The translations under genes were made by a program, and so were the position numbers. 42,256 nucleotides of DNA from a virus. The notes beneath the pieces were generated by a model. It did no database searches. It had not been told where the DNA came from and saw nothing but the letters and a program-made list of their open reading frames with translations. Shown piece by piece: positions 18,037-42,158 of this stretch (position 1 is its first letter; each line of letters opens with the position of its first letter). The stretch lies in IMG/VR virus record IMGVR_UViG_3300047497_000067, positions 1 to 42,256 of that record; one strand, given 5' to 3'.

Positions 18037-18876
18037 ATGAACAGTCTCGTGATCCCGCGTTCGATCGCTCGCCAGATGACGGGTATCGAGTGGACCGATT
18101 TCACCGGCAACGGCTGGATTGGTTGCACCCGGATCATGGCTAATTCAGGAGGAAGATCGGGCTGCGAAATCTGCTACGCAGCGACCTTCGCCGAAACGCG
18201 GTTAGGCTTGACATGGGGACCGGGCCAACCGCGCAGACCAGTCTCCAGTTTCTCAGCGAGGATGCGGCGCCTCGATCGCTTGGCTGAGACGACAGGCCTG
18301 CCATTTTCGGTATTCAGCCTGTCCCTTGGCGACTGGCTGGATCCTGAAGTCGATGCAGCCATGCGCGACAATCTCATCGAAACGGTTGAGAGCTGCACGC
18401 ACCTGACTTGGTTATTGCTGACGCATAGGCCACATCTCGCCAGAAAACTGCTGCCGTCCTCGTGGCGGACGCATCCACCGGTGAACATCTGGTCTGGCGT
18501 AACGATCGACCACCCTTTACACAACCATCGCTGGATCCCGCATTGCGAATATTGGGCGCACACCGGGCGCGCATGGATCTCGGCAGAGCCTCTGGCTGCG
18601 TCGCTCAACCCAGTTGTATTTGGCGGCTTCGCCACGATCATTTTCGGTGGCGCTAGCGGAACGTCTGATCCGACCTGGGAATTCAATCCAGACTGGGTTC
18701 ACGAGGCCGTCGATCGCTACGGCGAGGATAAGGTTTTCTTCAAGCAATACGGGGATTTTCGCGACGGCAAACGGGTGGGCAAAAGGGCAGCCGGCCGCGA
18801 TGTTCAGGGCCACATATATGACCATACCCCATGGCCGCGGCACCGCGAGGTCTTAAAGCTGGCGGCGAATGCCTGA
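18037..18876 (+). CDS. phage Gp37/Gp68-family protein (DUF5131)
   Basis: This is a 279-residue protein. GIEWTDFTGNGWIGCT (about 16-31) and SGCEICYA (41-48) match the family start (IEWTD..WNP..GC..vS.GC.nCYA). Later RAWISAEPL, WISAEP-like loops and KVFFKQYGDF near 226-235 are also family features. The family is distantly related to radical-SAM proteins, but here the cysteines are C30, C43 and C46, wider than usual. A role in nucleic-acid or small-molecule modification is possible and untested. It is inserted between lysin and MuF and overlaps the latter. Confidence 0.85.
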   Translation: MNSLVIPRSIARQMTGIEWTDFTGNGWIGCTRIMANSGGRSGCEICYAATFAETRLGLTWGPGQPRRPVSSFSARMRRLDRLAETTGLPFSVFSLSLGDWLDPEVDAAMRDNLIETVESCTHLTWLLLTHRPHLARKLLPSSWRTHPPVNIWSGVTIDHPLHNHRWIPHCEYWAHTGRAWISAEPLAASLNPVVFGGFATIIFGGASGTSDPTWEFNPDWVHEAVDRYGEDKVFFKQYGDFRDGKRVGKRAAGRDVQGHIYDHTPWPRHREVLKLAANA

Positions 18877-33415: not shown

Positions 33416-34518
33416 TGCCCTGGCCCGTTCCCGCACCTGGCGTCGTCACTGACCGCGCCGCCGGCGTCTACGAGGGCGAATATGCCCGCATCTACCTGCT
33501 GAAAAATCCTGGCGCCAAGGCGCCGATCGTTGACGCGCGTTCCCCTCTTTCCACGCTGGCGGTCCATGGCCGTGTCCTCGATATGGCGGTGCAGGATCTC
33601 TGGTTCTATCAGGGGCGGAACGCGCTGGAGCTGATGGTCGATACGGCCGAGGACTGGCTGCCTCGCCATGCGGCGATCTGGAACGTTCCGCAGATCCTCG
33701 CGACACCGGCGGTTGGAAACGTGATCTTCACCGGCGTCGCCGGCACGCCCATCCCTTCGGGTCTGGAGTTGTCGATCCAGGGTGGCCTGACCTACGTCAC
33801 CACATCCGCCGAGACGATCGCCGTCGGCCAGACGAATGTCACCGTGGCGGTCGAATGCACCAGCGCCGGATCCGTCGGCTCGCTCGCCGCCAGCACCGTC
33901 CTGACGGTTGTCTCGCCGGTGTCCGGACTGACATCGCAGACCGCGACCGTCGATCCCAACGGATTGACCGGCGAGGATGCGGAAACGATCGACAGTTGGC
34001 GCCAGCGCATCCTGGCGGCCATCCGCGATCCCGGCAGCGGTGGCAACGGGGCCGACTTCCAGAAATGGACGAAGAACGCGGCGCCCGGTGCGATCGTGTC
34101 GGCCACATCTCCGGGCACCGGTTTCATTACCGTCATCTTCGCGATGCCGAACGGCGAGACCTGGCGCGCGCCGACGACGCCCGAGGTCAATACCGTCACC
34201 GCCTATCTGAACGATGCGCAGAACCGCAAGCCCCTCGGCGCACCCGTCGTTGTCGTTGCGGGCGCCACCTTGGCCCCGGTCAACTTCACGATCCACCTGG
34301 TCAACGACACGACGGCCAATCGAACCGCCGCGACGAACGCGCTGGCCCTGCAGATCCTGGCGGATGCAACGATCGGCGGCACAATCTACTTCAGCCGGCT
34401 GGAAGCCGCCTTGCAGAATGCCGGTGGGTCCGTGGCCTATGAAATGACTGTGCCGTCGGCCGATGTGACCACGGCGGCCAATGCGATCGCCGTGATGGGC
34501 ACGGTGACCTGGGTATGA
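33415..34518 (+). CDS. gp47-like baseplate protein (baseplate J)
   Basis: This is a 367-residue protein. The Baseplate_J pattern is visible as AEDWLPRHAAIWNVPQ, then ATPAVGNVIFTGVAGTPIPSG (in two parts, about 97-125), and DAETIDSWRQRILAAIRDPG near 187-206. It connects wedge and hub and transmits the contraction signal. Length is normal for Mu gp47. It overlaps gp48 by 4 bp. Confidence 0.93.
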   Translation: MPWPVPAPGVVTDRAAGVYEGEYARIYLLKNPGAKAPIVDARSPLSTLAVHGRVLDMAVQDLWFYQGRNALELMVDTAEDWLPRHAAIWNVPQILATPAVGNVIFTGVAGTPIPSGLELSIQGGLTYVTTSAETIAVGQTNVTVAVECTSAGSVGSLAASTVLTVVSPVSGLTSQTATVDPNGLTGEDAETIDSWRQRILAAIRDPGSGGNGADFQKWTKNAAPGAIVSATSPGTGFITVIFAMPNGETWRAPTTPEVNTVTAYLNDAQNRKPLGAPVVVVAGATLAPVNFTIHLVNDTTANRTAATNALALQILADATIGGTIYFSRLEAALQNAGGSVAYEMTVPSADVTTAANAIAVMGTVTWV

Positions 34519-35123
34519 CCATTCCCTTCCCCCGTCCCGCTGACCAGGTTCGCGAGGAGCTGATCGCGCTGCTGCCGGATGGCGCGGCGACGCCGCATGA
34601 CTTCGACAATTACTGGAGTGCGAGGCTCAGCGCGCCGGCGGCGGAAATCGCGCTGATCGAGGAATCCGCCTTCAGCATGCTGCCCCAGATCGACCCGCGC
34701 CAGGCGCCGGATCTGCTGCCGGACTGGGAGCAGATGCTGGGGCCGGATCCCTGCCAGGTCTCCGACCAGGTCACCGACACGGTCACGCGCGGCCAGATCG
34801 CGTATCAGCGGCTGACCAACCGGGGAACGATCTGCGCCGGCTATTTCGAGCGCTATGCCTTGTCGATCGGCGAAACCATCACGATCGAGGAATTCCCCGC
34901 CTACATGCTTGGCCTAGCGGTTTGTGGTGGTTCGATGCTGGTCCAACCGCCGGAGCATTGTTCGTTTCAGGTGAGCCTGCCGGCGAGGGACGTCGTCTAC
35001 TTCATTTGCGGTGCATCGCAGTGTGGCGATGCCCTCGGGTCGTTTCAGCCGTCGGTGATGGAATGCGTCATCCGCAACGGCGCGCCGCTCTATGCCACCC
35101 CCTATTTCAATTACACGAGCTGA
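34515..35123 (+). CDS. gp48-like baseplate protein (DUF2313/YmfQ)
   Basis: This is a 202-residue protein. DUF2313 features are REELIALLPDG at the N terminus, LLPDWEQMLGPDP (about 72-84), and RGQIAYQRLTNRG (about 92-104). In Mu, gp48 ends the wedge toward the fibres. A Cys-containing C-terminal part (GSMLVQPPEHCSFQVSL) is typical. Confidence 0.92.
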   Translation: MTIPFPRPADQVREELIALLPDGAATPHDFDNYWSARLSAPAAEIALIEESAFSMLPQIDPRQAPDLLPDWEQMLGPDPCQVSDQVTDTVTRGQIAYQRLTNRGTICAGYFERYALSIGETITIEEFPAYMLGLAVCGGSMLVQPPEHCSFQVSLPARDVVYFICGASQCGDALGSFQPSVMECVIRNGAPLYATPYFNYTS

Positions 35124-35129
35124 GGCCGC

Positions 35130-36323
35130 ATGGACCGTATTTCCGGAGCCAATTACCTTACCCTCGGCGGCATCAGGGTTTTCCAGGACCTGAATCTCGG
35201 GACAGGCCAGCTGGGGACGGTGCCGAATGCCCTTTGGTTCACTGGTGCGCAGGAAAGCATCCTTGCGCCCGTAACCAAGATCGGGCTCGTGCCGACGGAC
35301 GCCGATAATACCCAGCTGCTGCAGGCGATCAGCCTGATCGGCGGCGGTGGGATGACAGTGGTGAGCGCGAACGCGGTTCTCACTGCCGCGGAAGCCGGCA
35401 TCATCGAAGTCAATGCCGCCGCTGGTCCGATCAATATCACGCTGCCAGCGGCCGCCGCCGCAAATAGTCAGAAATTCGGCTATAGATTTTTCCGGATCGA
35501 CAGCACGTCGAACACCGTGACGATATCGCCGCCTGCCGGAACGTTTTCTCCCGGTGCCAACGCCAGCTTTCAGCTACCGCCCCGGACAGCCGGACTTCTT
35601 ACCTTCAAATCCATTGAGGTGATTTCCGACGGCACGACCTGGTTGGTGGTGGGGCTTCCGTCCACGGTGCAGACGTCCTTTAGCTGGACCGCCGCTGGGT
35701 CCTATAGCTGGACTTGCCCCGCGGACACCTATTCTGTGCCCTACTATGTCACGGGCGGCGGCGGAGGGGGTGGCGCCAGCACCGCGACCAGTTCAAGCCA
35801 GTCCTCGGCGGGGCCGGGAGGTAACGGGGCACCGCTTTGCTTCGGCATTGCGACGACCGTGCCGGGGACAACCTACACAATCACCGTGGGCAGCGGCGGC
35901 GGCGGCGGCGTCACCGGGGGGGCGCCCGGCGGCAATGGCGGCGCGAGTAGTTTCGGATCCTTTGGGGCTTCCCCTGGCGCGCATGGCGCTCAGAACGCTC
36001 CCGCCACCACGCCGCCTTATGCGAGCGGCTTCACGGGGCCTTCGAACGTGTCGACGGGCGGCCTGATCAATGGCGGCGAGGAACCCGGCGGCCTTGGAAT
36101 ATTTTTCCAATCGACGTTGAACGGTCAGGCGGGCAACGGTGGTCGCGGCCCCTGGGGCGGCGGTGGTGTCGCCACCGGCGTCGGTGGCTCCGGCGGTGCG
36201 GCGCCCGGCGGCAATGGCCTGGCGCCCGGCGCCGGCGGCGCTGGCGGGATCTCGGGTCCCAGCCAGTCGGGGCAGAACGGCGGCCGCGGGGCCGACGGCG
36301 GCGTCTATTTGATAAAGCAATAG
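35130..36323 (+). CDS. tail fibre / glycine-rich tip protein
   Basis: This is a 397-residue protein. The N-terminal beta part (1-180) has a fibre-like module with NITLPAAAAANSQKFGYRFF. The second half is extremely Gly-rich: YYVTGGGGGGG, VGSGGGGGVTGGAPGGNGG, GNGGRGPWGGGGVATGVGGS (about 205-390). It ends in DGGVYLIKQ. Such Gly-rich ends are known from receptor-binding adhesins in which the Gly motifs pack as polyglycine helices with variable loops between. It is the first fibre gene after the baseplate, so a receptor-binding role is likely. Confidence 0.78.
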   Translation: MDRISGANYLTLGGIRVFQDLNLGTGQLGTVPNALWFTGAQESILAPVTKIGLVPTDADNTQLLQAISLIGGGGMTVVSANAVLTAAEAGIIEVNAAAGPINITLPAAAAANSQKFGYRFFRIDSTSNTVTISPPAGTFSPGANASFQLPPRTAGLLTFKSIEVISDGTTWLVVGLPSTVQTSFSWTAAGSYSWTCPADTYSVPYYVTGGGGGGGASTATSSSQSSAGPGGNGAPLCFGIATTVPGTTYTITVGSGGGGGVTGGAPGGNGGASSFGSFGASPGAHGAQNAPATTPPYASGFTGPSNVSTGGLINGGEEPGGLGIFFQSTLNGQAGNGGRGPWGGGGVATGVGGSGGAAPGGNGLAPGAGGAGGISGPSQSGQNGGRGADGGVYLIKQ

Positions 36324-36881: not shown

Positions 36882-37183
36882 GGGAAGTCAGCATCAAGCA
36901 AGGCGAGAGCCTGAACGTTGCCCTGTATTTCAAGGACGACGGCGATGCGATGGATATCTCGCATGTGGCGCTAGCTGCCCAGGTTCGCGACGCAAAGGAT
37001 GTCCTGGTAGCCAATCTGCCGATCATCATGGGTTCGGAAATCGGCCTCGCCTACATCCAGATTGTCGATACCTGCCGATGGCCCGATGGGCGATTGCGCT
37101 GCGACGTAAGGGCCGCGTGGCCCGGTCAGATCCAATTCACGGAAACCTTCGCCATCCACGTGAGAAGGGCGGTAACGCAATGA
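36878..37183 (+). CDS. small beta-sandwich fibre/baseplate accessory protein
   Basis: This is a 101-residue protein. REVSIKQGESLNVALYFKDD at the start, DISHVALAAQVRD in the middle and TETFAIHVRRAVTQ at the end follow the pattern of small beta-sandwich proteins (similar to N-terminal BppU domains) that accompany phage fibres. Function in this phage is unknown. It overlaps both neighbours by 4 bp. Confidence 0.6.
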   Translation: MREVSIKQGESLNVALYFKDDGDAMDISHVALAAQVRDAKDVLVANLPIIMGSEIGLAYIQIVDTCRWPDGRLRCDVRAAWPGQIQFTETFAIHVRRAVTQ

Positions 37184-37524
37184 TGTCCGTAATCATCGAG
37201 CAGATTGGTGCGATCCCTCCGCCGAGCGGCGTTGTGAAAACCAACATCATTGCTCAGGCCGGTGGTCAGGGGGCCGCGACGCTTCTGACGGCACGAAAGA
37301 ATATCATCAAGGTCTGCCCGGTTGGGGGCGGCGTGCTGCTTCAAATACTTCCGGATAACACGATGAAAGTCTTCAATCGCTGCGGCACCGGCCAGGTCCT
37401 TACGGTCTATCCGCCGTTTGGAACAAGTTTCGAAGAGAACGGCACCAACGTTCCTGTCACCATCGGTGATGGAAACCAAGCCGAATTCACTTTCGACAAC
37501 ATCCTGACCTGGGCGATTTCATAA
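37180..37524 (+). CDS. small structural-like fibre protein
   Basis: This is a 114-residue protein. Start ATGATG at 37180 overlaps the previous stop. The segment from TLLTARKNIIKVCPVGGG to the end (VFNRCGTGQVLTVYPPFGTS) is a beta module whose outline (nucleus of hydrophobic strands, then VYPPFG) recurs in the next protein as LAVYPFSGAQIE. It is probably a fibre or knob component. No enzyme motif is seen. Confidence 0.55.
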   Translation: MMSVIIEQIGAIPPPSGVVKTNIIAQAGGQGAATLLTARKNIIKVCPVGGGVLLQILPDNTMKVFNRCGTGQVLTVYPPFGTSFEENGTNVPVTIGDGNQAEFTFDNILTWAIS

Positions 37525-37532
37525 GGAGGCTG

Positions 37533-38165
37533 ATGTCAATGGAACGGCTTTTTCGCTATGTCGCCGGCTTCCTGCTGATCGCAGGCATCGCCATCGCCGG
37601 CAATGTCGGCCCGATGATGATCCAGAAATACGGCGCCGACATCGATAACCCCTCGGCATTCTGGGCCAACATCGGCGGCGGCGCTGTCGGGAAACTCAAC
37701 CTCGGCGCCGGCTGCGCGAATGATGGGAGCGGCAACCTTACCTGTGCCGGCGCCGTCGCCAGCGTGCAAGGCCACACCGGCGCAGTGACCCTCGGTCAGA
37801 GCGATATCAACGGGGCGCTCGGTTATACCCCGCTGAACAAGGGCGGCGACACAGCTACCGGTCTGATCGGCTTCACCCAGACCAACGGCGCAACGGCCGC
37901 AGGCACGACACAAGGCACCGCGACGGCGATAACGGCTCAGGTCACGGTCTTCACGACGGTTCCCGCCGGCTCTGGGACAGTTCTCAATACGACCGCCGGT
38001 GTGCGCCAAGTGATCTACAACCGGGGCGCCAGTACGCTGGCAGTCTATCCGTTTTCCGGGGCGCAAATCGAGGCCTACGGCGCTAACACCGCTGTCGGGA
38101 TCGCCGTCGGCGGTTCGGCGGTGTTCGAGTGCGTTAGCTCCACTCAATGCTACGTCGGGATCTGA
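37533..38165 (+). CDS. fibre protein with N-terminal membrane/signal segment
   Basis: This is a 210-residue protein behind a strong AAGGAGG. Residues 1-24 (MSMERLFRYVAGFLLIAGIAI) form a membrane or signal-anchor helix. Then come a fibre-like repeat (VQGHTGAVTLGQSDINGALG, then YTPLNKGGDTATG) found in tail-fibre shafts, and a C-terminal beta module (LAVYPFSGAQIEAYGANTAV). A membrane segment in a tail-fibre-like protein is odd: it could be exported, displayed on the envelope, or simply a membrane-active tip. Confidence 0.65.
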   Translation: MSMERLFRYVAGFLLIAGIAIAGNVGPMMIQKYGADIDNPSAFWANIGGGAVGKLNLGAGCANDGSGNLTCAGAVASVQGHTGAVTLGQSDINGALGYTPLNKGGDTATGLIGFTQTNGATAAGTTQGTATAITAQVTVFTTVPAGSGTVLNTTAGVRQVIYNRGASTLAVYPFSGAQIEAYGANTAVGIAVGGSAVFECVSSTQCYVGI

Positions 38166-38179
38166 TGGGGGTAAGCATC

Positions 38180-38560
38180 ATGAAACGTATTGGTCTCTTG
38201 GCTTTTCTCATTGTTCTCGCCGCGACTGACGCCAAAGCTGACCCACCGCTGGTTGGCTTTGCGCCCGGCATTGCTGTAAATCCGACCGTCTCGGGCGTCA
38301 CTTCTCTGACGGCGGGATCCTCCTCCCAGATATTTGGCGCGGGGAACCGGAATGCCTACCGGATCGCCAACACGACCGCCTCAAGTGGGGGCGATGTCCT
38401 TTGCACCGACGACGGGAGCACGCCATCATCGACCAACTACTCTTTTAGGGTCTATGCGACGACTGTTGATCTTGAAGCTCTCCCCAATCCGCTGAGCAAT
38501 CAGGCATTAAACTGCACCTGCTCCACAGGTAATTGCACAATCAAGGCGGAGCAATACTGA
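38180..38560 (+). CDS. small exported fibre-region protein
   Basis: This is a 126-residue protein from ATG 38180. A clear Sec signal peptide (MKRIGLLAFLIVLAATDAKA, cleaved before DPP) is followed by a beta domain with two Cys-rich spots (DVLCTDDGS and LNCTCSTGNC). ATG 38165, which overlaps the previous stop, is another possible start and would keep the signal. Related beta modules are in the neighbouring fibre genes. Export would place it in the periplasm, unlike a normal tail protein. Confidence 0.6.
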   Translation: MKRIGLLAFLIVLAATDAKADPPLVGFAPGIAVNPTVSGVTSLTAGSSSQIFGAGNRNAYRIANTTASSGGDVLCTDDGSTPSSTNYSFRVYATTVDLEALPNPLSNQALNCTCSTGNCTIKAEQY

Positions 38561-41500
38561 TGTCCTCGGTTGGCCGCCGCAGCGCGCTGATGGGTGCTGC
38601 GAGTGTTCTCGCACTTCTTAACATCAACGCGAAGGCGTCGAATTTGCCGCCCCTCATCGCCCAGGGGGGTCGGAAGAAATTAGGTGTCCTTCTCAACTCG
38701 GTCGATGTCACCGACTATGGCGCGATCGACGACCTGCTGCGCGGCTACTACACCTGCACCTGGTCGAGCAGCAGCCCGACTATCACCAGCGCATATACAT
38801 ACGTGGGCCAGGTGACCGTCCAGAACAATGGCACCTATAACGGTCAGACGGTCGCTACCCTGCAATTTCCCAACCAGATCGCCTCGACGGGGCTTGGATT
38901 TGGCGAGGACTGGATTGGCAAGCCGATCGCCATCACGGGGGCGGGAACCTCGGGCGGCACGTTTATCGCAGTCGTGACAGACTTCGATTATCTACCACGC
39001 ACATCTAACCAGGTGCCCACCTGGACACTGGATCGCGTGGCGCCGACGACAGTGACGGCTTCGTCTCAAAGCATGGCTTGCCCGTGCTTCAGTACCGGCA
39101 GCGACGGCTCTGGATTCCCGTCGGATGTGGGCAAGACCATCGTTGTCAGCGATGCGCTGAACGCCTCGGGAAACGTCATTGCCGCGAGCGGTCTGTTCCC
39201 GAACATCGCCACGATATCGGCGGTCAACTCGCCCTTTTCCGTGACGCTCTCAGCTAATTCTTCGGGCAATAACACGGCCAACTTTTCGACCGCTAAGAGC
39301 AGTTTTCCGGGCGTATTTATTCGCTGGTTCACGGATAATCATTCGGCGATGGTCAATGCCGGTTTCGCCGCGCGCGGTCAGGGGCGAACGTCGCTGTTGT
39401 TCAGCGGTTTTCGCTATGCGCAGAGCACCGGTGTATTTGGTGCGATCGGGCTTAACACGAGTGGCATCTTCAATGATGCTTCGGCGCAGTTCGCGCACGT
39501 TGCCTCGCAGCTCGACTGGTGGACCAGCGGCGGCGAAACGGAAACTGATGTTATCAGTTCGCAGGCGACCAGTTCGCCGGCCAGTATCCAGGAAGTGTCT
39601 TGGTGGCGTCAGGCTATCCCATTCAACGCCCCGCCGCCGTCTTCCCCCGCCGATGATTGCGGAGGAACCGCGTTTCCGGTGTCGGCCACGCTGGCCTCCG
39701 TGCCAGTCGTCATCACCGGCGACAGCTGGACGGTCGAAGATCCGTCGGGCGATGGAAACAACTCCATCACCCTGTATCAGCGTGCGTTGCAGCGAAAGAA
39801 CAAGAGCAAAAAGGTAAATGTCCAGACGCGGGGGATCGGAGGCACGCGGTGGTTGGACCTGTATTCCTCGGCGAATGTCGGCGGCACGGTCAATGTTCCG
39901 CCCTGGAAAACAAGCACCAGCGTGAACTGGCTGAGCAACTATGTGCTCTCGATTCCAGACCCGAACGCGAATGGGACCGGCAGTGTTGTCCCCGGCCTGG
40001 TGATTATCGCGGAAGGTTCGAATGACACTTCGGCGTTGCACCCGACTCATGTCTGGGGTGTGCTGAACCGGATCAAGAGCGTGACGGCGGCGAATGGGCT
40101 GCCACCTGATATACTTTTGGTCACTGAAGGCACGAAGGGTTCGGACCTCTTCTCCGCGGGAGGCGAAGAGGGAATCGGTATCGGCTGGAATGATTATGAT
40201 GCCGGTTATGTGCGATCGGTGGCCCGAGCCAACAAACTGCCGCTGATCGATTTTGCGACGCGCGCGACGCAAGCGCAGTATGGTTTCAATCCCTGGAATG
40301 CTGTGCGCAAGATCGTCCCGCCGCTATCGTCCGGTTCCGCCGCGGCAACCGCGCCTTATACCTTCCCCGGCGGCTACAAGAGCAGGTCGCACCGTTTCAT
40401 GCTGCAGCTCGGTAACGGGACGAGCACCACGGGCGCTCAGTTCTGGACTGCGATAAAGACACTGGAGATCCAGCTTTCGCCGAAACCGGACAACAGGCTC
40501 GTGCTTTCGACGGATCAGACCATCACGGGGGACGCTGGCGGCAATCTCTACGTCTATCACCGCTCCTGGGGCTATATCATCAGCACGCCCTGCACAATCT
40601 CGAACGGCAGCAATGCGCTCGCGACCAGCGGTCAGACCAACATCGGTACTGCCGTGGGCGGGTTCATCAACAATGGAGGTATCAATTTCATCCTCGCCCC
40701 GAACGGTGGTTATTCGGGCTTCGCGTCGGGACAGGTGGGTAGCTGCTTGAGAGTTGTTGCCGCCGATGTGACAGGCGAAGATTATCGAACATCCATCACT
40801 GCTTTTACCAATAGTGGTATCATTGGTGTGACCGATGATAACATCAATGCGACGGCATTGACCTCTAGCAACGTCTTCTGGCAGGGCGGCTGGATGTTCA
40901 CGCCGCGCGATGCGGTGGCGCAGGCGAACATCCGCATCACCGATGGCAGCGGGAACACGCTGCGATCCTCTCTGACGGCCTACACCGATTTTCAGCACGT
41001 GACGCTCAAGGATAACTGGACCTTCACCGGGTTGTCCGCGTCCAGCGTCACTGTTGAGTTTGGCCGCTTCACCGCCCCGGCCTGCATTGCCCAGGTCGCC
41101 GCGGCGAGCGATGCGGGGATTGCGCCACTGCTGATTGTCGACATTAACGACGCGCACGTCCGCGTCAGTTATATGCTGGGATCTGGCGCTCCCTCTGACC
41201 CGCGCAGTTCGGCGCAGACAGCTGAGCAAATCATCTGGGAAGGCGACGTCGAACAGTTCGGCGGCGCCTGGTCGCCGCAAATCTGGGCCACCGGCGGGAC
41301 GGTCAATCTTCAAGCCGTTTGGTGCGAAATCGAGGATCGCCGGCGCGTTTATACTCGCCCCTTGTTGAGCGTGCGCGATGCGATGGCAGTCGGCGACACA
41401 AAGACGACCTTTCCCCTGGGTGGTGACACCTCTCACTACAGCCGGCGGTATATGGACGTGGTTATGCGCCCCGTCATCGAGGCGCAGAATTTGACCTTCA

Positions 41501-41805
41501 AGGACGATTATTCTCACAACGCCGGCACGAACACGCCGACCACTGGCTTCACTTACACGATCCCCCCCAATCAGGCGTTCACCGGGCTGACTCCGGCCGG
41601 CACGTTGGCGACGGGCGCCATCAATCTTCCCTCCGTCTTCCCTCAAGGCACCGAGCTGATCGTCTCGTCCAGCCAGACGATCACCGCATGCACCTTCAAC
41701 GCGCCATCCGGAACGACATTTGCCGTTTCCGCCCCGACCAGCTTGAGCGCGGGTGTGGCAGTTGGCTGGGTTCTTGAGGGCACGACGTGGTTCCGGTCGA
41801 AATAG
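38560..41805 (+). CDS. large tail fibre with SGNH-hydrolase domain
   Basis: This is a 1081-residue protein. ATG 38560, with AAGGCGGAG 8 bases upstream, overlaps the previous stop. Residues 1-27 (VGRRSALMGAASVLALL) look like a Tat-type signal. About 380-620 is an SGNH/GDSL hydrolase: GDSW with S389 as nucleophile, RGIGGTRW (block II) and AEGSND with N488. The usual DxxH block is not obvious. The rest is beta-rich fibre, ending in a module with SSSQTITACTFNAPSG. It probably removes acyl groups from host surface polysaccharide during adsorption. It is the last gene of the phage. Confidence 0.82.
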   Translation: MSSVGRRSALMGAASVLALLNINAKASNLPPLIAQGGRKKLGVLLNSVDVTDYGAIDDLLRGYYTCTWSSSSPTITSAYTYVGQVTVQNNGTYNGQTVATLQFPNQIASTGLGFGEDWIGKPIAITGAGTSGGTFIAVVTDFDYLPRTSNQVPTWTLDRVAPTTVTASSQSMACPCFSTGSDGSGFPSDVGKTIVVSDALNASGNVIAASGLFPNIATISAVNSPFSVTLSANSSGNNTANFSTAKSSFPGVFIRWFTDNHSAMVNAGFAARGQGRTSLLFSGFRYAQSTGVFGAIGLNTSGIFNDASAQFAHVASQLDWWTSGGETETDVISSQATSSPASIQEVSWWRQAIPFNAPPPSSPADDCGGTAFPVSATLASVPVVITGDSWTVEDPSGDGNNSITLYQRALQRKNKSKKVNVQTRGIGGTRWLDLYSSANVGGTVNVPPWKTSTSVNWLSNYVLSIPDPNANGTGSVVPGLVIIAEGSNDTSALHPTHVWGVLNRIKSVTAANGLPPDILLVTEGTKGSDLFSAGGEEGIGIGWNDYDAGYVRSVARANKLPLIDFATRATQAQYGFNPWNAVRKIVPPLSSGSAAATAPYTFPGGYKSRSHRFMLQLGNGTSTTGAQFWTAIKTLEIQLSPKPDNRLVLSTDQTITGDAGGNLYVYHRSWGYIISTPCTISNGSNALATSGQTNIGTAVGGFINNGGINFILAPNGGYSGFASGQVGSCLRVVAADVTGEDYRTSITAFTNSGIIGVTDDNINATALTSSNVFWQGGWMFTPRDAVAQANIRITDGSGNTLRSSLTAYTDFQHVTLKDNWTFTGLSASSVTVEFGRFTAPACIAQVAAASDAGIAPLLIVDINDAHVRVSYMLGSGAPSDPRSSAQTAEQIIWEGDVEQFGGAWSPQIWATGGTVNLQAVWCEIEDRRRVYTRPLLSVRDAMAVGDTKTTFPLGGDTSHYSRRYMDVVMRPVIEAQNLTFKDDYSHNAGTNTPTTGFTYTIPPNQAFTGLTPAGTLATGAINLPSVFPQGTELIVSSSQTITACTFNAPSGTTFAVSAPTSLSAGVAVGWVLEGTTWFRSK

Positions 41806-42119: not shown

Positions 42120-42136
42120 TCTAAAACCAAGTGGCG
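42120..42136 (-). other. transposase end site R2
   Basis: TCTAAAACCAAGTGGCG is identical to the outer copy at 42142-42158, exactly 22 bp away, the same pitch as R1-R2 in Mu. On the minus strand it reads with the GGTTTTAGA core shared with L1. It is inferred to be a binding site for the MuA-like transposase. Confidence 0.65.
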
Positions 42137-42141
42137 GTGCT

Positions 42142-42158
42142 TCTAAAACCAAGTGGCG
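42142..42158 (-). other. transposase end site R1
   Basis: This is the outer copy of the 17-bp direct repeat TCTAAAACCAAGTGGCG and lies 6 bp from the proposed right end. It is in inverted orientation relative to L1 and L2, as required for synapsis of the two ends. Confidence 0.65.

Follow-up and report, generated by a model that had tools for sequence, protein, structure and literature searches.

Export signals on the last three genes of a Mu-like phage

The last three genes of the phage represented by the window (the whole 42,256-nucleotide stretch of IMG/VR record IMGVR_UViG_3300047497_000067), here called p1, p2 and p3, each encode a protein with a predicted N-terminal export signal, and long spike- or fibre-like genes with such signals recur in the tail regions of other phages. 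In our proposal, which we regard as about evenly balanced, p1-p3 are members of a class of secreted, disulfide-bonded tailspikes that recurs among phages and would encounter virions, or surface glycans, when the cell lyses.

The Mu-like identity of the phage is evident from MuA, MuB, Mu portal, F, baseplate J and gp48, all of which were found in the window, and the closest detectable relatives (58-67% identical in baseplate J) were IMG/VR contigs and Acetobacteraceae genomes. At the tail end, gp48 (34515) is followed by the glycine-rich fibre gene (35130) and three small genes, and then by p1, p2 and, as the final gene of the phage, p3 (Table 1). The preliminary description had spoken of a lysogen; the IMG/VR record of the window is linear and contains a Mu transposase, and nothing in it indicates integration.

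Table 1. Features at the tail end of the window and within p1, p2 and p3
Feature	Position in window	Strand	Basis
Baseplate wedge resembling Mu gp48, used as anchor in the comparative survey	34515..35123	+	
Ordinary glycine-rich tail fibre, signal-less	35130..36323	+
Small gene without a signal, paralogous to the C-terminal domain of p1	37180..37524	+
p1, small fibre-like protein, 210 aa (208 aa from ATG 37539), predicted Sec signal	37533..38165	+
p1 predicted signal peptide, MERLFRYVAGFLLIAGIAIA^GN	37539..37598	+	rule-based test and sequence
p1 segment SVQGHTGAVTLGQSDINGALGYTPLNKGGDTATG	37761..37862	+	sequence
C-terminal beta domain of p1, a paralogue of the 37180 gene; Cys200/Cys206 flank the last hairpin	37869..38162	+
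p2, 126 aa, predicted Sec signal MKRIGLLAFLIVLAATDAKA^DPP, 4 cysteines	38180..38560	+
p3, spike-like protein of 1081 aa with a Sec/Tat-like signal, motifs of SGNH esterases and a phage C-terminal domain	38560..41805	+
p3 predicted signal peptide, MSSVGRRSALMGAASVLALLNINAKA^SNLPP	38560..38637	+	rule-based test
p3 SGNH block I motif GDS, residues 387-389	39718..39726	+
p3 SGNH block III motif GSND, residues 486-489	40015..40026	+
p3 candidate SGNH block V motif DTSH, residues 956-959	41425..41436	+	position after an insert of about 300 residues
p3 C-terminal domain, residues 990-1070	41527..41769	+	47% identity to a signal-less 854-aa spike of prophage L130

The three open reading frames were as previously described, and all three proteins passed a rule-based signal-peptide test (basic n-region, hydrophobic h-region and AxA-type cleavage site; both the predictor and the gene caller were home-made), with scores of 4.7 for p1, 6.0 for p2 and 5.2 for p3. 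Among the called genes of the window, the test flagged these three only. Because the rate obtained with shuffled N-termini was about 1.4% per gene, three signal-bearing genes in a row are not expected by chance. The N-terminus of p1 reads MSMERLFRYVAGFLLIAGIAIA^GNVGPM, with the ribosome site TAAGGAGG; the helix, which had been called a membrane or signal helix, is of the cleavable signal type and not merely a membrane segment. The test agreed with the classical Sec signal with AKA cleavage proposed for p2. The signal of p3 (ribosome site GGAG) also ends in an AKA cleavage site, and the twin arginine noted previously is present (GRRSALM). Compared with the Tat consensus S/T-R-R-x-F-L-K, however, the residue at +2 is A and not F or L, so that the motif should be regarded as only Tat-like, and p3 may use either Sec or Tat. 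Ribosome sites adjoin most of the chosen starts.

The gaps to the neighbours across p1-p3 are 8, 14 and -1 bp, and a search with the sigma-70 consensus found no promoter-like site between 36800 and 42256 of the window. Given this tight packing within the late operon and the lack of a sigma-70-like promoter in that interval, p1-p3 should be expressed late, together with the tail. The hallmark of a lysogenic-conversion moron, namely its own promoter and terminator apart from the late operon, was not found for p1-p3.

Phage modules in p1 and p3

Both p1 and p3 are composed of phage fibre and spike modules and, as judged from these modules, are phage-type proteins, not the host-derived envelope proteins suggested previously. 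The segment SVQGHTGAVTLGQSDINGALGYTPLNKGGDTATG of p1 resembles tail-fibre repeats, of which we take it to be typical. The C-terminal domain of p1 has 34% identity (E 1e-8) to the protein of the directly upstream 37180 gene and 40% identity to a gene of prophage L128. An AlphaFold model of this domain, built from a five-sequence alignment, had good confidence (block-mean pLDDT about 72-96), and the proteins matched by Foldseek among viral models were nearly all phage proteins.

The pattern GDS, GxND and DxxH of SGNH esterases is present in p3, with block V assigned as a candidate across the 300-aa insert. The match of p3 to Pfam Lipase_GDSL_2 (E 5.4e-3, 17.7 bits) was below the gathering cut-off of 32.9, as was that of the excised domain (E 5e-4, 21.1 bits). 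Because AlphaFold without an alignment gave a pLDDT of 32 for residues 376-665, the putative SGNH fold rests on the motifs and the sub-threshold Pfam match. Residues 383-654 also matched weakly (23.5% identity, E 1e-3) gene 262 of Escherichia phage anhysbys, an SGNH-domain gene which lies close to tail-fibre and tail-spike genes and is annotated only as hypothetical.

When p1, p2 and p3 were searched one by one against viral and genome contigs, none gave a match, and no relatives of p2 were found in these contigs. A profile of the p1 N-terminus (A3) gave only chance matches in 397 Acetobacteraceae genomes, apart from the known relative.

Recurrence in Acetobacteraceae phages

Using gp48 (PF10076) as an anchor, we surveyed the 397 Acetobacteraceae genomes with the home-made gene caller and obtained 80 tail regions. 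With a minimum gene length of 200 aa, non-lipoprotein signal peptides were predicted in 22 of 181 genes downstream of gp48 versus 0 of 292 upstream (Fisher 3e-10). Flagged genes occurred in 20 of 71 regions, and five of the flagged cases were, by inspection, membrane proteins or lipoproteins. Long signal-bearing spike- or fibre-like genes (220-970 aa) were present in about 17 regions, a tally that includes L079 and L135, which the filter had overlooked. Many of the signal-bearing proteins have a tailspike pectate-lyase N-cap, and there were PHROG tail-spike matches among them. In 22 gp48 regions from outside Acetobacteraceae, we found no spike-like case with a signal; the only flagged gene there resembles an ordinary transporter protein.

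The layout of the window is shared by prophage L128, which has a small domain gene, a p1 homologue with a signal and a 968-aa spike with a signal. In the syntenic phages L002, L004 and L005, the place of p1 is taken by a fibre (645 aa where complete) with a signal ending in AANAFA^Q, and a motif behind the signal, VGPM..Q..GADI.NPS.F, is common to p1 and these fibres. In phiAO1, a mitomycin-induced Acetobacter phage, the signal-bearing spike is gene 380, an 820-aa protein with a pectate-lyase cap and a signal ending in AGAEAKA, encoded behind the baseplate genes; it is not homologous to p3, and the content of the virion is outside the scope of PMC8566455.

Another big spike, without a signal, was present in 5 of 16 prophages with a signal-bearing spike versus 33 of 52 others, as if signal-bearing spikes replaced the signal-less ones. 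The replacement is only partial, because five signal-bearing prophages have a big signal-less spike as well.

Signal-bearing spikes in IMG/VR contigs and Burkholderia phages

A second set was obtained by scanning IMG/VR with PGQ[IV]LTAAQLN, the mature N-terminal module of one subgroup. The pattern was found in 29 contigs, and 27 of the 29 proteins bear a signal (26 by rule, and L199 after correction of its start). A search of annotated phages found the same gene in Bcep781, Bcep43, Bcep1 and BcepNY3. In fact, Bcep781 gp49 and Bcep1 gp51 are annotated as 'possible tail fiber; possible signal peptide domain', and the signal was confirmed at the annotated start of the Bcep781/Bcep1 gene. We had first supposed that the trait occurs only in Acetobacteraceae, a view abandoned once the IMG/VR scan had led to these Burkholderia phages.

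The genes of these virulent naesviruses (Bcep781 gp49, Bcep1 gp51 and BcepNY3 gp50) are similar to p1-p3 in that a long tailspike-like gene of the tail module has a Sec signal, although no sequence homology was detected and both the phage type and the host are different; Bcep781 gp49 adjoins the tape-measure module, whereas p1-p3 lie at the Mu right end. The description of Bcep1, Bcep43 and Bcep781 in PMC3765740 is that of obligately or putatively obligately lytic phages, so that modification of the lysogen does not appear to be the general purpose of signal-bearing spikes.

In several of the IMG/VR spikes (L179, L187, L188, L195, L201 and others), the spacing of recurring cysteines is fixed, at 17 and 35 residues, which may reflect rung-to-rung disulfides.

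Evidence that the signals are used

In pairs of related proteins, the signal was less conserved than the adjoining mature part: 38% versus 100% identity for L084/L132, 32% versus 73% for L085/L092 and 38% versus 69% for two L128 proteins. The last two are adjacent exported-type proteins on the minus strand (L128:7849-8460 and L128:4946-7849), and the 69% identity covers about the first 30 mature residues, which suggests a common docking or capping module.

The number of mature cysteines is even in 22 of 24 signal-bearing spikes of the first set and in 13 of 18 of the second (35 of 42 together), compared with 63 of 130 signal-less genes of the same regions and 107 of 223 upstream genes. For 35/42 versus 63/130 the Fisher test gave 4e-5, with a spike set that was partly hand-curated and whose members are not phylogenetically independent. 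An initial tally over all signal proteins, in which single-cysteine lipoproteins were mixed in, gave 51% even. Cysteines lying at most 36 residues from another made up 86% and 89% in the two sets, compared with random values of 49% and 55% and with 51% for signal-less genes; the 36-residue window was picked after inspection of the data, and a pairing within 15 residues seen in the first set was not repeated in the second. Four mature cysteines are present in p1 and four in p2, and p3 with nine is an exception. The parity and the pairing together would constitute a disulfide signature, which cytoplasmic proteins have no reason to show. Because the signals diverge while the mature part is conserved, and because of this disulfide signature, the export of the signal-bearing spikes looks genuine, as far as sequence comparison can indicate. 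The remark in the preliminary description that export signals are unexpected on tail fibres was to the point, and the unexpected feature turned out to be a recurrent pattern.

Proposed pathway and alternative explanations

Tailed phages are, according to the textbook view, assembled entirely in the cytoplasm. In the pathway that we propose, p1-p3 would be synthesised from the end of the late tail operon and exported via Sec, or possibly via Tat in the case of p3; signal peptidase would cleave the exported proteins, and oxidation in the periplasm would yield disulfide-stabilised spikes. Lysis would then release the spikes along with the cytoplasmically assembled virions, and the spikes might dock on the baseplate or the fibre, which is the least certain step. 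Docked spikes would serve in receptor binding, and p3, if its SGNH motifs reflect an active enzyme, might also deacetylate glycans. The broader proposal, a widespread class of tailed phages in which the receptor-binding spike is exported, acquires its disulfide bonds in the periplasm and joins the virion only at cell burst, so that the last maturation is extracytoplasmic, seems to us plausible but somewhat short of an even chance. If true, it would give tailed phages a second assembly compartment and account for the maturation of cysteine-rich spikes; phage yield or adsorption would be predicted to depend on host Sec/Dsb, and spikes expressed as depolymerases should be produced in the periplasm. 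The export of endolysins is already known (PMC6116005). Single annotated cases such as the 'possible signal peptide domain' of Bcep781 are already known; in the literature searched, to which the original Bcep781 paper did not belong, exported tailspikes were not described as a class, and neither a generalisation nor an explanation of such cases was found.

The main alternative is that the signal-bearing proteins are free exported glycan-active enzymes (depolymerases or deacetylases) that are never parts of the virion and remove polysaccharide made by the host itself, either at lysis or between cells. A precedent is WceF of Pantoea stewartii, a trimer with a tailspike fold and a Tat signal that cuts exopolysaccharide (PMC7949094), although WceF is a chromosomal, non-phage enzyme of an EPS operon and p3 has SGNH motifs and not a proven beta-helix. 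The pectate-lyase and SGNH domains of signal-bearing spikes (the latter, in p3, by motifs and the sub-threshold Pfam match) would suit such enzymes, as would the ordinary signal-less fibre that most inspected prophages keep beside gp48. However, the modules are shared with signal-less spikes of the same genomic slot and the two kinds of spike are in part mutually exclusive, suggesting a role in the virion, and p1 and p2 have no enzyme domain; we therefore consider free enzymes a serious but rather unlikely explanation. Lysogenic conversion, in which the proteins would alter the lysogen envelope (superinfection exclusion or surface change) as also suggested previously, is compatible with the temperate nature of Mu-like phages and with lambda Lom, an exported protein from a tail region. 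It is nevertheless improbable, and unlikely as a general role because virulent Burkholderia phages share the trait and the genes lie inside the late operon, with the short gaps and the lack of a separate promoter-like site described above; moreover, p1-p3 have no recognised outer-membrane anchor.

The comparison of signal and mature parts given above bears on the suggestion that the hydrophobic N-termini are uncleaved helices for fibre trimerisation or for plugging into the baseplate. Fibres do attach to baseplates by their N-termini, but here the helix is the least conserved part and the sequence past the AxA site is highly conserved, the n-, h- and c-regions are those of textbook signal peptides, and the disulfide signature would have no place in this explanation, which we consider quite improbable. 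Wrong starts or chance hydrophobic stretches are barely credible: alternative starts do exist (37533/37539), but the ribosome sites by most starts and the tight operon spacing argue against misassigned starts, and the shuffled rate together with the 0 of 292 upstream genes argues against chance.

Other observations

Acetobacter phage phiAX1, which is of a different phage type, encodes among its head-tail structural genes a signal-bearing protein of 321 aa whose mature part has four cysteines (L148:26418-27383). A Tat-type lipoprotein of about 190-200 aa (TRRAFLRG...LTAC) recurs at the end of Acetobacteraceae prophages (L066:11203-11808; L069:11449-12036; L070, L071, L073, L079, L084, L085, L091, L092, L093 and L096) and is also encoded by phiKM1 (L147:44759-45367) and phiKX1 (L149:48190-48765); the one member searched had no Pfam match, and a lysis or conversion protein is possible.

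In the window, a DUF5131 gene lies between the portal and F-like genes (18037-18876). Near the right end, CTAAAACCAAGTGGC occurs in two exact direct copies 22 bp apart (42121-42135 and 42143-42157), with a weak inverted copy at 278-292, and these copies possibly represent a Mu-like end or a host junction.
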